From positions 1 to 33,681 of the IMG/VR virus record IMGVR_UViG_3300044846_002188: a stretch of 33,681 nucleotides of DNA; one strand, given 5' to 3'. The stretch's first letter is position 1. Every line of letters starts with the position of its first letter. Source of the stretch: a virus. The translations under genes and the position numbers were made by a program. The notes beneath the pieces were generated by a model. The model made no database searches, was not told where the DNA came from, and saw only the letters and a program-made list of their open reading frames with translations. Shown here piece after piece: positions 28,374-33,612 of this stretch.

Positions 28374-28449
28374 ACTTTTCTATTCGTTATTCGTTTTGTT
28401 GTATGGCATCTTCGTCGCCATCTTGTTAGCGGAACTCATTAAAGGTTGA
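28363..28449 (+). CDS. 28-residue membrane peptide
   Basis: GTG-started micro-protein, MGNKLFYSLFVLLYGIFVAI, then LLAELIKG. It is essentially one transmembrane helix with a short basic end. It fills the gap between two genes and overlaps the previous gene by 11 bases. Support is the clean hydrophobic pattern and context only. Confidence 0.45.
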   Translation: MGNKLFYSLFVLLYGIFVAILLAELIKG

Positions 28450-28451
28450 AA

Positions 28452-29177
28452 TTGCTCACACAAAACAGTGAGTTGAAGCCACATGGGATATTCAACTGGA
28501 CAATTCCGGCTTGGCATACTCGCCTATCTGATGGCACATTCTTCAAGACATGCCCGAACGCCGGTGCTTGTGCGCGTGTGTGTTATGCCAGAAACGGAAC
28601 ATACCTATTCCGCAACGTGGCGCAAGCTCATTTGCGTAACCTTGAAGCGGTATTGAATGATCCGCAAGGCTGGAAGAACGCGATGATCTCGGAGTTGAGC
28701 CACAAACGTTTCCGCGCCACCGGAGATCCGAAGAACATTCCCATTGACACAGATCAATTAGACAATTGGGCAAGAGCATGGATACGAAACGGTGGGAAAG
28801 CGGTACGCATACATGACGCAGGAGACTTTTTCGCGCGTTGGTATTTGGATCTATGGATAGAAATAGCGAACGATGTTCCGGACGTGTTGTTCTATGCCTA
28901 CACGAAAGAAGTGCAGATGTTCCGCGATGTTGAGCAATTCCCTAATAACTTTCGGTTTCTGTTTTCAACCGGTGGCTTACAAGATGACCTGATTGGCGAC
29001 GAACGCCACGCCGACGTATTCCCCAACGATGATGCCATGAACGAAGCCGGATATAGCAGTCAAGAAGCAAATGATCTACTGGCAGTGCTGTTGCCGACGA
29101 ACCGTGTCGGGATCGTGGCTAATAATATTCCCGCATTCAATAAGAAAATGGCAGGACGTAGGTTCTCTGAACTATGA
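28452..29177 (+). CDS. GP88-family protein (cysteine motif)
   Basis: A 241-residue protein of the actinophage GP88-type family: LKPHGIFNWTIPAW, KTCPNAGACARVCYARNGTY, then VRIHDAGDFFARWYLDLW, VLFYAYTKEVQMF and RFLFSTGG. The C-x5-C-x3-C cluster followed by YARNGTY recalls iron-sulfur binding in Gp37/Gp68-like radical-SAM-type phage proteins. TTG 28452 is preferred because AAAGG lies 6 bases upstream; TTG 28446 is an alternative but too close to that site. No enzymatic role is established. It immediately precedes the modification genes and could contribute to them, but this is only contextual. Confidence 0.8.
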   Translation: MLTQNSELKPHGIFNWTIPAWHTRLSDGTFFKTCPNAGACARVCYARNGTYLFRNVAQAHLRNLEAVLNDPQGWKNAMISELSHKRFRATGDPKNIPIDTDQLDNWARAWIRNGGKAVRIHDAGDFFARWYLDLWIEIANDVPDVLFYAYTKEVQMFRDVEQFPNNFRFLFSTGGLQDDLIGDERHADVFPNDDAMNEAGYSSQEANDLLAVLLPTNRVGIVANNIPAFNKKMAGRRFSEL

Positions 29178-29201: not shown

Positions 29202-29813
29202 ATGATTCATGATGAACTCACCCAACTAACCGTCGCAATTGATTCGGTAAAGAATCACCCTCGGAACATTCGTCAAGGTGACGTTGGCGCAATTAGCCAG
29301 TCACTCAAAGAGAACGGTCAATACCGACCAATAGTTGTCCAAAAAAGCACCGGTTATGTTCTTGCTGGAAACCACACGTTGAAAGCAGCCAAAGCTCTTG
29401 GCTGGAAAACAATTGCTGCAACAATGGTTGATTGTGACGATGATCGCGCGTTGCGTATCTTGCTTGCCGACAACAAGACAAATGATCTCGCGTCATACGA
29501 TGAGAACGCACTATCCGAACTGTTGAAGGAACTGGCATCAACAGAACAAGGTTTGTCCGGCACGTTATACACTGGCGATGATCTTGACGACATGCTATTC
29601 AAAGCAGACTTCACACACGGCAACGCTTCCGTAGGTGTTGGTGTGCATGATGTGTCTGATGAATATTACGACAAAGCAATCAGAAGCCTGATCCTTGTGT
29701 ATAAAGAAGAAACACACCACGATCTTGTAAAACGTCTTGATGAGATTGGTGAAAAACTCAAATTGGATAACCATTCAGACGTGGTCCGGCACTTGATTGA
29801 AAAATGGAAATAG
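29202..29813 (+). CDS. ParB/Srx-fold protein of the modification cassette
   Basis: A 203-residue protein. Residues about 10-100 are a ParB N-terminal-like domain: IDSVKNHPRNIRQGDVGAIS, SLKENGQYRPIVVQ, VLAGNHTLKAAKALGWKTIA and ALRILLADNKTND. No partition helix-turn-helix is obvious; the C-terminal about 60 residues are helical (HHDLVKRLDEIGEKLKLDNH). Stand-alone ParB-like proteins of this kind accompany DNA methylases and TET/JBP enzymes in phages, and the fold can bind nucleotides or cleave DNA. AGAAGGAG precedes the ATG. It overlaps the dioxygenase gene by 10 bases, which links the two. Confidence 0.85.
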   Translation: MIHDELTQLTVAIDSVKNHPRNIRQGDVGAISQSLKENGQYRPIVVQKSTGYVLAGNHTLKAAKALGWKTIAATMVDCDDDRALRILLADNKTNDLASYDENALSELLKELASTEQGLSGTLYTGDDLDDMLFKADFTHGNASVGVGVHDVSDEYYDKAIRSLILVYKEETHHDLVKRLDEIGEKLKLDNHSDVVRHLIEKWK

Positions 29814-30700
29814 TTGAACGCCAACTAATTGAATGGCAACCTGAAAAGGATCGCGCAAAACGCTTTGCTGATCTCTTGAATGGTCATGGCAATGACTTTG
29901 CTATACGCGATGCGGAAACCGGTGTTATCAGCGTCGTTCAAAAACAAATTGACTTGGCGAATGTGATTGACCTGCCAAAGTTGTTGCGCCATCTCCGGCT
30001 CAAAGGTTTCTATACGCAAGCCAAAGAAGGCTCAATGCAGAGAGCATCGGGAATAAAAGCGAAGGAACAATGGTTTGGATACATACCGCCAGACACTTTG
30101 AAGCGTCGGTATGCCATCAACCGGTCAGGGCTATATAAAAAGAACGCCGAACTAGGTTTCACCCTTGAAGGACTAACTCCGGTGATGTGGGACGCGTTGC
30201 GCGAGATCGCGCCGGAACAGACACAAGCTCATGAAGAATTGGTTGCGGAGAACATTCACCGTGACTGGTGGCTAGGTGATTGCCCATTCACTTCGGGCAT
30301 TATCAACCATACAAACGTTCTGCCATACCACAAGGACAGTGGCAATCTCCAAGGCAGTTGGTCAATGATGTTGGCATTGCGCAAAGGTGATGAAGGTGGC
30401 GCGCTACACATTCCTGAATACAACGAAACACTTGCTATCCCTGATTGCTCGGTTACTTTCTTCAACGGACAGAAATACTGGCACGGTGTTACACCAATAT
30501 CGTTGCGTGATCGTGACGCGTATCGTTTCACAATGGTTTGGTATGTCAAAGACCGCATCAAATACTGTTTGTCACGTGAAGAAGAACTACATCGTGCAGC
30601 ATCAACCGCCACAAAAGGCAACAAAAGCGTAACCGCGAAACGAAAAAGCGTTGCGGAAGCAAAAAGGAATCAAGATGGAACAGGGAAGCCTGTGGAATGA
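29804..30700 (+). CDS. TET/JBP-type 2-oxoglutarate Fe(II) dioxygenase
   Basis: A 298-residue enzyme predicted to oxidise the methyl group of a base (thymine or 5-methylcytosine) in DNA to hydroxymethyl. The double-stranded beta-helix core is visible: NHTNVLPYHKDSGN with iron ligands H176 and D178, SWSMMLALRKGDEGGALHIP, a third ligand H227 in YWHGVTPI, and the 2-oxoglutarate-binding arginine R241 in AYRFTMVWY. KDRIKYCLSREEEL after the core is typical of the phage TET/JBP group. The N-terminal about 110 residues may bind DNA. A basic, low-complexity tail ends the protein. No cytosine methyltransferase is in the window, which favours thymine as substrate. Confidence 0.85.
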   Translation: MEIVERQLIEWQPEKDRAKRFADLLNGHGNDFAIRDAETGVISVVQKQIDLANVIDLPKLLRHLRLKGFYTQAKEGSMQRASGIKAKEQWFGYIPPDTLKRRYAINRSGLYKKNAELGFTLEGLTPVMWDALREIAPEQTQAHEELVAENIHRDWWLGDCPFTSGIINHTNVLPYHKDSGNLQGSWSMMLALRKGDEGGALHIPEYNETLAIPDCSVTFFNGQKYWHGVTPISLRDRDAYRFTMVWYVKDRIKYCLSREEELHRAASTATKGNKSVTAKRKSVAEAKRNQDGTGKPVE

Positions 30701-31553
30701 TTATGTTTCATTTCATACAGAACAAATAAAGTCTTGGGACATTGATCCGGTATATCCAGTTCTCAAATACATAAACAAAGACGTTGATAAAGAATCTGCC
30801 ATTTGGCTGACATTTCTACACGTCGCGTACTATCACATTGGATCCGCGTTGGCGGTGTGGCACGAATATCCGTATCCTGCCATTCCAAGCGATGACATGT
30901 TGAAACTTCCTTGCGGAACAGAACGACGCGCGCACCGCGATCCCGCCAAATTGAAGAAACATCTAACAGATCTCATAACGCGCGAACCATTATCTGAATT
31001 CGTCAATAGAGCCATCACAAACGATCCGCGCCGGTCTTGGGCACGTATGGAACTGATGCTTCAAACGATCTGGGGCAACGGACGTTGGGCAACGTTCAAG
31101 ACTTCCGAAATGTTGATGAAGGTAAATGATCTTGCGCTTGAAGCAACAGATATGGGACACAAGAACGGATCCGGCTCAAAGCACGGTTTGAAGCTCTTGT
31201 ACCCTAATGCGCCAATGGGTAACTCAAAGCGCGACATTGCCATTCTTGACAAGATCTCTGATGAATTGGTTGAACGGCTAATAGATGCTGGCGCACCGGC
31301 AACTTTGGAAACGGCAGAAACATCTTTGTGTGACTTCCATTCAATGCTTGAAGGCAGGTATTACGTCGGATACGACATTGACGCCATGTTGAAACAATTG
31401 CGTGGTGTACCATCACCACTAACAGAAAAAGCATTTGAAGCAAGGTGCGCCACCATACCGGTGCAGTATCTTGGAGAGATCAACGGTTGGGAGACGACAG
31501 ACGATGAACGAAAACGCGCATACAAACAACGACGCGCAGTCCTTTACCGTTAG
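30675..31553 (+). CDS. Amino acid:DNA transferase (aGPT-PPlase-like)
   Basis: A 292-residue helical protein whose pattern fits the alpha-glutamyl/putrescinyl-thymine pyrophosphorylase-like (amino acid:DNA transferase) family: AIWLTFLHVAYYHIGSALAV, NDPRRSWARMELML (about 116-129), GNGRWATFKTSEML (134-147), and ETSLCDFHSM followed by GRYYVGYDIDAML (about 215-239). These enzymes have a DNA-glycosylase-like fold and replace an activated phosphate on 5-hydroxymethyluracil in DNA by an amino acid or amine. AAAAGGAA sits 7 bases upstream of ATG 30675, inside the dioxygenase gene. Assignment is by motif memory and by the company of dioxygenase, kinase, flavoprotein and acetyltransferase. Confidence 0.72.
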   Translation: MEQGSLWNDYVSFHTEQIKSWDIDPVYPVLKYINKDVDKESAIWLTFLHVAYYHIGSALAVWHEYPYPAIPSDDMLKLPCGTERRAHRDPAKLKKHLTDLITREPLSEFVNRAITNDPRRSWARMELMLQTIWGNGRWATFKTSEMLMKVNDLALEATDMGHKNGSGSKHGLKLLYPNAPMGNSKRDIAILDKISDELVERLIDAGAPATLETAETSLCDFHSMLEGRYYVGYDIDAMLKQLRGVPSPLTEKAFEARCATIPVQYLGEINGWETTDDERKRAYKQRRAVLYR

Positions 31554-31968
31554 GACAGCCACAATTACAGATCGCGCCACTATTGAACTGATCGTTAGGC
31601 AATGCGGGAAACATGTTCGTGATTACTTCGGCATACGCAACTTGATTGACTTTTACCGCAAAGGCGAAGTGTTCATCGTTGAAGATCCTTCACCAATAGC
31701 ATTTGCTGTCGCCAAACCGTTGATACGTGAACAAGTAATCTCGCTATATGAGATAGGCGTTGTTCCACATAAACGCGGTCAGGGCATCGCAACCAAGCTC
31801 ATGTATCACATTGATACCTTGCACCCAGATCGCACTTGGCGGTTGGTTGTGAATGATGACAACGCACCGGCACGTATCGCATACGAACGCTTAGGGCTGA
31901 AAGCATACGCATACGACAAAACCAAAGGTGGCAGACCAATAGTCCGCATGGAAGGAAAACTACGTTGA
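31504..31968 (+). CDS. GNAT acetyltransferase of the modification cassette
   Basis: A 154-residue GNAT-fold protein. The acetyl-CoA loop is GVVPHKRGQGIATKLM (about 85-100, RGQGIA), followed by the conserved WRLVVNDDNAPARIAYERLG segment. The N-terminus is polar and asparagine-rich; ATG 31504 is chosen because the frame upstream belongs to the transferase gene. Together with the neighbouring enzymes a role in acetylating an amine placed on the modified base is likely, as acetyltransferases are known in phage thymidine hypermodification sets. Protein or small-molecule acetylation is an alternative. Confidence 0.85.
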   Translation: MNENAHTNNDAQSFTVRTATITDRATIELIVRQCGKHVRDYFGIRNLIDFYRKGEVFIVEDPSPIAFAVAKPLIREQVISLYEIGVVPHKRGQGIATKLMYHIDTLHPDRTWRLVVNDDNAPARIAYERLGLKAYAYDKTKGGRPIVRMEGKLR

Positions 31969-32777
31969 GGCAAATGATTATCGTCGGATCCGGCGTGGCT
32001 GGCTCATGCGCGCAAAGGATCGCGTCATACTATGGCTGGCAAACAACAGTGATAGATGATCTCCCGACAACGGCTGCTTCACGTGCAGCATTGGCAACGA
32101 TCCGCCCACAATGGCTTGGAGAGAACGGCAGGGAATGGGCGAAAGCATCGTGGCGTTGGTATGAACGTTGGGGTGTGAACATCACCCAACATGGCTTGGT
32201 ATCATCATGGAAGAAACCAGAACCAACACTTCAAAAGGATTGGTGGCTGGTTGAGCCAATCGGCGTACTCGTGATGCCAGATGTTATGGAACGCGTCATA
32301 GATGTGACCGGCACAACCGTCACGACAACCGAACAAACGTTCGTAGGCGACGCGGTACTTGTGGCTGTGGGGGCACATGATCCCAAGCTCTATGGCGACT
32401 TCAAACCAATGACCGGCTGCACGCTCTACAACAATCAAATAGAAATGTCCGGCGCGCCATTGCGTGTGCATCATCTAAGACCATTCCACGCGCTCACAGT
32501 GGCTCAACAAGGAGATACCGTCGTGTTGGGATCATCTATCCACCGCGAGATGGCAAAAGCCGAAGAAGAAGTGTGGCGTATGCTCACCGTCGCGGAAGAC
32601 ATTGGCATTGTGCCCAAGTCACACCAATGGATCATGCGCGGAAACACCAGAGCCACATCACCCAAAGCAACATTGCCCGAAGCAGGCAACCCTTCAACCG
32701 TGATTGGATCGTTGGGACGTTCCGGCTATGGCATCACACCACATGTCATTGAGCAATGGATCGTGAGCCTGACATGA
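31965..32777 (+). CDS. FAD-dependent oxidoreductase (amino-acid oxidase type)
   Basis: A 270-residue flavoprotein. The Rossmann dinucleotide motif is IIVGSGVAGS (G8-x-G10-x2-G13), with D31 closing the second strand in TTVIDD; VLVAVGAH (about 131-138) is the usual second FAD-contacting strand, and the C-terminal VIGSLGRSGYGITPHVIEQW resembles the final FAD motif of D-amino-acid/glycine oxidases. It is short for that family (usually over 330). TTG 31965 has AAGGAAAA at the right distance, better than ATG 31974. In known phage pathways a flavin-dependent lyase trims the amino acid attached to the base; this enzyme is the obvious candidate for that step. Confidence 0.82.
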   Translation: MRQMIIVGSGVAGSCAQRIASYYGWQTTVIDDLPTTAASRAALATIRPQWLGENGREWAKASWRWYERWGVNITQHGLVSSWKKPEPTLQKDWWLVEPIGVLVMPDVMERVIDVTGTTVTTTEQTFVGDAVLVAVGAHDPKLYGDFKPMTGCTLYNNQIEMSGAPLRVHHLRPFHALTVAQQGDTVVLGSSIHREMAKAEEEVWRMLTVAEDIGIVPKSHQWIMRGNTRATSPKATLPEAGNPSTVIGSLGRSGYGITPHVIEQWIVSLT

Positions 32778-33334
32778 TCGTTGTGTATCTCATTGGCGTG
32801 GCTGGCGTTGGTAAATCAACAACTGTAAAGGAATTGACTAACGAATGGTCATTGCGTATGGAAGCACCCAAACCATTCGCGCACCGACACTACGATACGC
32901 CACATGGCAGAGGAATCGTACTTGGCAAAGATGTTGAACCATTCGGCGGAACAGACACGCTCTCATGGACAGCCATCAACCACGTCGGTGACTTCTTCAA
33001 CGCTTGCGCACAGCGCAACGTACAACTAATCATCGGTGAAGGAGATCGCTTCGCTAATGGTAGGTTCTTTGACGAAGCATCAGCACACGGAACGTTGTTG
33101 TTGTTCAGTCTTGAAGCACCTGACGATGTGACCGAGGATCGCAGACAGGTACGTGCCACTACCTTCAACACTCCATTGCAGAACGCTACTTGGATTGCAG
33201 GCAGAAAAACAAAAACAACTACCCTTGCCGAGAGGTATAGAGCATTCCCCATAGATGCGACACAACCAACATCATCTGTTATTCAAACAATCAATAAAAG
33301 AATCAACCAATGCCTATTCAAAGACCATGCTTGA
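32774..33334 (+). CDS. P-loop kinase (5-hydroxymethyluracil DNA kinase-like)
   Basis: A 186-residue P-loop kinase. Walker A is GVAGVGKST (8-16), FGGTDTLSWTAI (about 57-68) is a distinctive segment of actinophage base-modification kinases, LIIGEGDRFANGRFF (86-99) carries acidic residues near the active site, and AGRKTK (142-147) supplies a basic lid. In hypermodification pathways such a kinase phosphorylates 5-hydroxymethyluracil in DNA so that the phosphate can be displaced. ATG 32774 overlaps the flavoprotein stop. Some deoxynucleotide kinases are similar, so the DNA-level role depends on context. Confidence 0.8.
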   Translation: MIVVYLIGVAGVGKSTTVKELTNEWSLRMEAPKPFAHRHYDTPHGRGIVLGKDVEPFGGTDTLSWTAINHVGDFFNACAQRNVQLIIGEGDRFANGRFFDEASAHGTLLLFSLEAPDDVTEDRRQVRATTFNTPLQNATWIAGRKTKTTTLAERYRAFPIDATQPTSSVIQTINKRINQCLFKDHA

Positions 33335-33612
33335 ACTGCAAGCAACTGACAACCAGAACAACCAGATGCGAGACATGCCAACGCCTATGGAACACCGCAC
33401 ACCCGAAACCAATTCGCAAGCACTACCAAGGCACATACCGCAAACGCGCCAAGCTCATACGCGACAACGCCACCCACTGCTGGCTATGCGGGAAAGCAGC
33501 CATTCACAACGATCCTTGGACAGCAGATCATGTGATAGCAGGAGATCCGGATTCACCCTTGGCACCGGCACACAGATCATGCAACAGCAGACGCGGAAAC
33601 ACACCTGTATGA
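33310..33612 (+). CDS. HNH endonuclease
   Basis: A 100-residue HNH nuclease. An N-terminal zinc ribbon (CLNC at 7-10, CETC at 20-23) is followed by a second pair C57-x2-C60, the catalytic TADHVIAG (D73, H74), PAHRSCN (H88, C91, N92) and SRRG. Such HNH proteins lie directly upstream of the terminase genes in many phages and take part in DNA packaging. It overlaps the kinase by 25 bases. If the contig ends join, it would sit about 130 bases before the small terminase gene. Confidence 0.9.
   Translation: MPIQRPCLNCKQLTTRTTRCETCQRLWNTAHPKPIRKHYQGTYRKRAKLIRDNATHCWLCGKAAIHNDPWTADHVIAGDPDSPLAPAHRSCNSRRGNTPV

Follow-up and report, generated by a model that had tools for sequence, protein, structure and literature searches.

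A six-gene phage cassette predicted to begin amino-acid-based thymidine hypermodification with a TET dioxygenase

Described systems and the cassette in the analysed record

Hypermodified thymine is a known form of protection against restriction. In M6- and ViI-type phages, 5-hydroxymethyluracil (5-hmU) is made by a thymidylate-synthase-family enzyme, and in the M6-type pathway (Yuavirus, e.g., Lydia), which leads to 5-(2-aminoethyl)uridine, an amino acid:DNA transferase (ADDT) and a kinase act on 5-hydroxymethyldeoxyuridine (5-hmdU) in DNA, together with a pyridoxal-phosphate-dependent (PLP) enzyme and a radical S-adenosylmethionine (SAM) enzyme. The operon of phages PaMx11 and Ab18 combines an ADDT, a flavin adenine dinucleotide (FAD)-dependent lyase, a GNAT acetyltransferase and a P-loop kinase with a thymidylate-synthase-family hydroxymethylase and the HMUDK helical protein; in this type of pathway, flavin-dependent lyases and acetyltransferases are said by Lee and colleagues (2022) to act. 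PaMx11 is listed under Abidjanvirus, the genus of Ab18 (PMC11946847). In the Rhodococcus phage Tonitrus, a five-gene cassette has been named a possible thymidine hypermodification system (PMC11955845). Here we describe a locus in the IMG/VR virus record IMGVR_UViG_3300044846_002188, the whole of which (33,681 bases, hereafter the window) was analysed. Six genes located within its last 4.5 kb (29202-33334, + strand) encode the following products:

29202-29813, + strand: ParB-like protein, 203 amino acids; predicted targeting or loading factor for TET
29804-30700, + strand: TET/JBP 2-oxoglutarate (2OG)- and Fe(II)-dependent dioxygenase (TET), 298 amino acids; predicted hydroxylase of the thymine 5-methyl group in DNA
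about 30675-31553 (open reading frame opens at 30651), + strand: ADDT (aGPT-PPlase-like), 292 amino acids; predicted to replace phosphate by an amino acid on the 5-phosphomethyl group
about 31507-31968, + strand: GNAT N-acetyltransferase, 153 amino acids; predicted to acetylate the 5-aminomethyl group
31965-32777, + strand: FAD-dependent amino-acid-oxidase-like enzyme, 270 amino acids; predicted N-alpha-glycinylthymidine lyase leaving 5-aminomethyldeoxyuridine (5-aminomethyl-dU)
32774-33334 (open reading frame from 32756), + strand: P-loop nucleotide kinase 3; predicted 5-hmdU DNA kinase

These genes probably constitute a TET-initiated, amino-acid-based thymidine hypermodification pathway, with thymine as the predicted substrate and 5-acetylaminomethyl-dU as the predicted product. 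Our confidence is higher for some amino-acid-based base modification than for this full chain, and a modified base is predicted for the virions. The reading frames are intact and overlapping, and family profiles support all six assignments, in agreement with an earlier note on this DNA that had proposed the cassette from the letters alone. This set of genes recurs, in unchanged order, in further IMG/VR contigs (contigs and loci are designated below by L numbers). Chance is excluded because this order recurs and because the ratio of nonsynonymous to synonymous substitutions (dN/dS) against the relative L004 is 0.08-0.18 for all six genes, which indicates purifying selection; decay of the genes was ruled out by the same ratios and by zero internal stops.

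The cassette shares homologous ADDT, FAD, GNAT and kinase genes with the PaMx11/Ab18 operon; however, it has TET and ParB instead of the hydroxymethylase and the HMUDK helical protein, its order is ADDT-GNAT-FAD, and no DNA polymerase of family A or B was found in the 33.7 kb record, so that for these two families the earlier suggestion of a phage without its own DNA polymerase is confirmed. With Tonitrus and the Gordonia phage Wooper it shares ParB, a Tet-like J-binding protein, aGPT-Pplase2/ADDT and the 5-hmU kinase near the terminase, whereas at the FAD position these phages have W5hyp, a fifth gene that belongs to a different family, and they have no GNAT. The order TET-ADDT-FAD-kinase-terminase and the FAD homologue recur in the Mycobacterium phages Phelemich/Reprobate and the Microbacterium phage Kozie (in Phelemich together with ParB), but no GNAT lies there between ADDT and kinase, and their ADDTs are just 37-39% identical to that of the window. 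The same core is found near the terminase in the Mycobacterium phage LilMcDreamy. The M6-type pathway differs in using the PLP and radical SAM enzymes rather than FAD and GNAT, and a hydroxymethylase rather than TET. The reading of the earlier note, which drew on M6 and ViI, is supported, with the correction that TET appears to stand in for the thymidylate-synthase-family enzyme that makes 5-hmU in those phages. Its remark that the combination is unusual does not stand, since cassettes of the ParB-TET-ADDT-kinase type are frequent among actinophages, both cultured and uncultured, which also leads us to reject rarity of the cassette in actinophages. What is distinctive here is the GNAT and FAD pair, and what is new is that a TET start is joined to the glycine, flavin and acetyl steps that end the PaMx11-type pathway, with a definite product predicted.

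Families and folds of the encoded proteins

The TET protein matches Pfam Tet_JBP at 1.3e-7 (31.4 bits, slightly below the 34.9 cut-off). Its AlphaFold2 model (pLDDT 92.9) has Naegleria TET1 (NgTET1) as the top Foldseek match (3e-12), and its VIA Z score of 19.2 is equal for NgTET1 and human TET2, with the next class at 14.2; a single-sequence PDB search gave zero matches. The iron ligands H176, D178 and H227 and the 2OG-binding arginine R241, which had been picked out beforehand as H176-x-D178, H227 and R241, show no variation across 72 homologues. The protein therefore displays the double-stranded beta-helix fold, the HxD...H ligands and the 2OG-binding arginine of the TET/JBP family.

How the cassette would obtain 5-hmdU is suggested by the distribution of two enzyme types. 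Among 52 ADDT records, the thymidylate-synthase family occurs in 4/4 without TET and in 0/48 with TET (Fisher p 3.7e-6), the contigs being often partial, so that absence in a contig does not equal absence in the phage. The HMUDK helical protein splits between the two sets in the same manner, and no member of the thymidylate-synthase family was found in the 33.7 kb record. The simplest reading is that TET takes the place of the nucleotide-level hydroxymethylase and supplies 5-hmdU within DNA, and thus modification would begin in polymerised DNA. Thymine as the TET substrate is suggested by this exchange and by the record itself, in which no C5-cytosine methylase was found; such a methylase scored above cut-off in just 4/43 ADDT+TET records.

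The ParB-like protein matches Pfam ParB_N (3.8e-8) and PHROG 723 (6e-40). Most TETs have ParB just upstream, and ParB heads the ADDT-FAD-KIN-TET cassettes. A role of ParB in aiming TET is suggested because it accompanies TET and because no ParB was detected at the examined ADDT loci of the thymidylate-synthase type.

The profile search proposed in the earlier note assigned the 30675-31553 product to the Amino acid:DNA transferase family (Pfam PF18724, 3.8e-19, over the cut-off), and its best PDB match is the ADDT 25qc (7e-5). A profile match to 8z2m was discarded as circular evidence, because the alignment held Ab18, which belongs to the same genus as the 8z2m source phage. The window ADDT and that of Ab18 are 19% identical as aligned. 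Close ADDTs are rare in cells: among 84,980 species genomes scanned, 5 loci were found. The expected family was likewise recovered for the kinase, which matches P-loop Nucleotide Kinase3 (Ploopntkinase3, PF18751, 1.6e-17), as in other ADDT cassettes. The outcome that the note had named as refuting its reading, placement of both proteins in unrelated families, was not observed. Iterated profiles gathered 108 members when seeded with the window kinase and 109 when seeded with the kinase of the Ab18 operon, and the Ab18 profile recovers the family of the window kinase; there was no match to the Pfam family HMUDK_HMUD1, and a single-sequence PDB search gave zero matches. Its start at 32774 is more likely than 32756, as a stop interrupts the upstream extension in L004. 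The cassette thus has the ADDT, the kinase and, if TET makes 5-hmdU as predicted, the 5-hmdU source that mark amino-acid-based thymidine hypermodification systems. The kinase family is also present in about 350 mycobacteriophage records (e.g., Colbert, GQ303259), where it is often gene 1 and annotated as adenylate kinase or terminase small subunit; TET matches occur in just 55 Mycobacterium records.

The FAD protein matches Pfam DAO (1.3e-7). A profile of actinophage FAD homologues only placed the flavin-dependent lyase PDB 8z2o/8z79 first (2.3e-8; next 4.6e-5), and the same two entries, which according to their title show the N-alpha-glycinylthymidine FAD-dependent lyase gp47 from PaMx11, are the top Foldseek matches (1.9e-13) of the model (pLDDT 94.1). 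The alignment with gp47 has a VIA Z score of 25.3 over 257 residues with 16% identity, and the runners-up are CmiS2 (24.6, a tie), glycine oxidase (23.2) and MnmC (21.3); glycine oxidase and MnmC are fold relatives with comparable chemistry. The enzyme belongs to the gp47 (NGTO) fold and family, and by analogy it is predicted to have lyase activity on glycinyl-dT in DNA. Residue R229, invariant in the first alignment, in which Ab18 and Rhizobium phage homologues were included, may be the substrate-carboxylate arginine of the oxidase superfamily.

The GNAT protein matches Pfam Acetyltransf_1 (1.4e-8). Among 50,697 phage records, only ten contain matches to E 0.01, all of them from Pseudomonas phages. 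Three of these (Ab18, Lucjan, and Epa43) were examined, and in each the operon reads ADDT-FAD-GNAT-kinase-HMUDK_hel-thymidylate synthase, with the homologue after the FAD gene and before the kinase. Plasmids gave nothing better than a far weaker match of 0.02 over 56 residues. The window protein is therefore of the Ab18 type by its GNAT domain, its place in an ADDT/FAD/kinase operon and its nearest relatives.

Proposed pathway and alternative readings

In the proposed pathway, ParB would load on phage DNA and target the enzymes, which is the weakest step. TET would act on the 5-methyl group of part of the thymines once the DNA has been replicated, hydroxylating it to 5-hmdU; the enzyme class of this step is given by profile and fold, and the thymine substrate is suggested by the replacement of the dUMP hydroxymethylase. 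The P-loop kinase, judged by its family and operon, would phosphorylate the hydroxyl group, and the ADDT, placed in its family by the profile, would swap the phosphate for glycine, yielding N-alpha-glycinylthymidine; glycine is the presumed amino acid because the next enzyme is an FAD lyase resembling gp47. The FAD enzyme would then oxidatively cleave the glycyl arm in the manner of PaMx11 gp47, leaving 5-aminomethyl-dU, which the GNAT would acetylate to 5-acetylaminomethyl-dU. As a result, a fraction of the virion thymine would be present as 5-acetylaminomethyl-dU and would shield the DNA from host nucleases.

The identity of the end product depends on the GNAT and FAD enzymes. We assign a small probability to a pathway that is the same up to 5-aminomethyl-dU but ends in this free amine, with the GNAT acting on a host or phage protein or on some other amine. 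GNATs readily change substrate, and a GNAT of the window type is missing from most ADDT cassettes that include the FAD gene; however, in 7/7 contigs carrying a GNAT of this type it directly follows ADDT inside the cassette, it is the best conserved of the six genes in comparison with L004 (90% amino acid identity, dN/dS 0.08), Ab18-like phages have its homologues in an operon of this kind, and GNATs of other types, which resemble it little, adjoin ADDT cassettes in L104/L118 and L161. It is still less probable that the ADDT adds an amino acid other than glycine, the FAD enzyme yields another oxidised product, and the pathway ends in a different, novel acylated base. The folds of glycine oxidase, sarcosine oxidase and D-amino-acid oxidase are almost as close as gp47, and the low identities of the FAD enzyme to gp47 and of the ADDT to that of Ab18 favor this possibility, whereas gp47 is the top match by two independent methods and the GNAT indicates the same pathway as in PaMx11/Ab18. 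We regard as similarly improbable that TET oxidises 5-methylcytosine (5mC) and the kinase and ADDT decorate 5-hydroxymethylcytosine, so that the modified base is cytosine. Published phage TET work concerns 5mC, near relatives of the window TET are found in C5-cytosine-methylase phages (L023, L025, L027, and L035), and some of them adjoin TET-associated glycosyltransferases; this is opposed by the scarcity of C5 methylases described above, by the linkage of the Ab18 kinase/ADDT/FAD/GNAT set to a thymidylate-synthase homologue and the 5-hmdU kinase helical protein, and by the mutual replacement of TET and that homologue with zero exceptions.

The pathway to 5-acetylaminomethyl-dU remains our preferred reading, and several points weigh against it in addition to the partial contigs in the replacement test. 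The kinase matches 382 phage records and TET just 94, thus the kinase alone is no proof of the pathway. The FAD enzyme is just 16% identical to gp47, with CmiS2 structurally tied to it, and the GNAT is just 31% identical to that of Ab18 within a large superfamily. The sister-group TETs (L023 and L025) belong to phages encoding C5-methylases; in L025 (4003-5999), which is near the window TET in the tree, a C5-cytosine methylase is located immediately upstream of ParB-TET, likely constituting a 5mC-TET arrangement. The R+8 residue, which we take to correspond to the TET2 H1904 position, is lysine in the window TET and in the C5-methylase-linked TETs alike, hence thymine and 5mC specificity are unreadable from sequence; no active-site residue examined divides the two groups.

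If the proposed pathway is true, TET-driven thymidine hypermodification obtains a named product that can be tested by mass, and whether phage TETs oxidise thymine besides 5mC becomes testable. The exchange between TET and the thymidylate-synthase family suggests two independent routes that prime one decoration chemistry, of which the TET route proceeds without takeover of the nucleotide pool, as suits a phage of 33.7 kb that lacks a DNA polymerase of its own. In addition, five small enzymes able to write an acetylated amine into DNA would form a compact tool set.

Cargo slot, relatives and genome setting

The cassette is bordered by two further genes:

28446-29177, + strand: Gene product 88 family protein (Pfam GP88, 4.7e-43); left slot border
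33310-33612, + strand: HNH endonuclease (PHROG HNH, 2e-5); gene 1 of the packaging module and right slot border

The HNH endonuclease is probably outside the hypermodification pathway. The genes for the small and large terminase subunits (TerS and TerL) lie at the left end of the record (64-1990) and the HNH gene at its right end; in L002 and L004 the same cassette continues directly into HNH-TerS-TerL, therefore the record probably represents a nearly complete genome opened before TerS. Among phage records, the closest match of TerL is Pontimonas phage phiPsal1 (39.7% identity), consistent with a host that is probably an aquatic actinobacterium.

Related contigs (TerL 63-73% and TET 39-50% identical to those of the window) have different cargo in the interval from TET to HNH: L028 has a TET-associated glycosyltransferase (by a weak Pfam match), L022 a MobA-like nucleotidyltransferase and a choline-kinase-like protein, L026 an FkbM methyltransferase, L021 ADDT and kinase, and L101 ADDT-FAD-kinase. 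The left-border GP88 protein is 60-67% identical over its full length in L027, L028, and L063, whose cargo differs, and ParB remains with TET across the slot loci. The distribution of ADDT over the TET tree requires 12 or more changes of this label when only well-supported branches are counted. The interval from ParB-TET to HNH-TerS-TerL looks like a slot for the exchange of DNA decorations. A broader proposal, for and against which we see about equal weight, is that a thymine-hydroxylating TET feeds the full glycine/flavin/acetyl pathway and that ParB-TET is a general platform on which swapped decorating enzymes build different chemistries from one hydroxylated base. The slot genes occupy 1752-4349 in L022, 6813-7508 in L026, 6860-7678 in L028, 6797-7756 in L035, and 3910-5636 in L063, and include a second 2OG oxygenase as well as proteins with no family assignment.

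From the window and IMG/VR we collected 93 ADDT loci, taken from the best-scoring 80 of each search, and their counts are thus not population frequencies: TET is present in 88/93, the kinase in 86/93, and the FAD enzyme in 65/93. The W5hyp family occurs in 13/93 and never together with the FAD enzyme. As a possible diverged homologue of the latter, W5hyp reached an hhalign probability of 11% over an N-terminal stretch only. W5hyp proteins (Wooper gp5 and Tonitrus gp8; L007 3054-3926 and L008 3761-4642) have a nucleotide-binding-like N-terminus.

Other cassettes differ in content. Two extra genes lie between ADDT and FAD in L139 (6824-8048), L148 (6881-8190), L165 (2751-4072), and L172 (2253-3505); the pair in L139 comprises homologues of amidoligase-2 and of a low-molecular-weight phosphatase, the other three look similar, and the pair possibly provides a further tailoring step. 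In L051 (7847-8961), where no FAD gene was detected, the ADDT cassette includes an FkbM methyltransferase and a dual-specificity-phosphatase homologue, and L058 (7745-8831) is similar. The ADDT cassette of L053 (7706-8611), likewise with no FAD gene detected, contains a PLP-dependent (PALP) enzyme.

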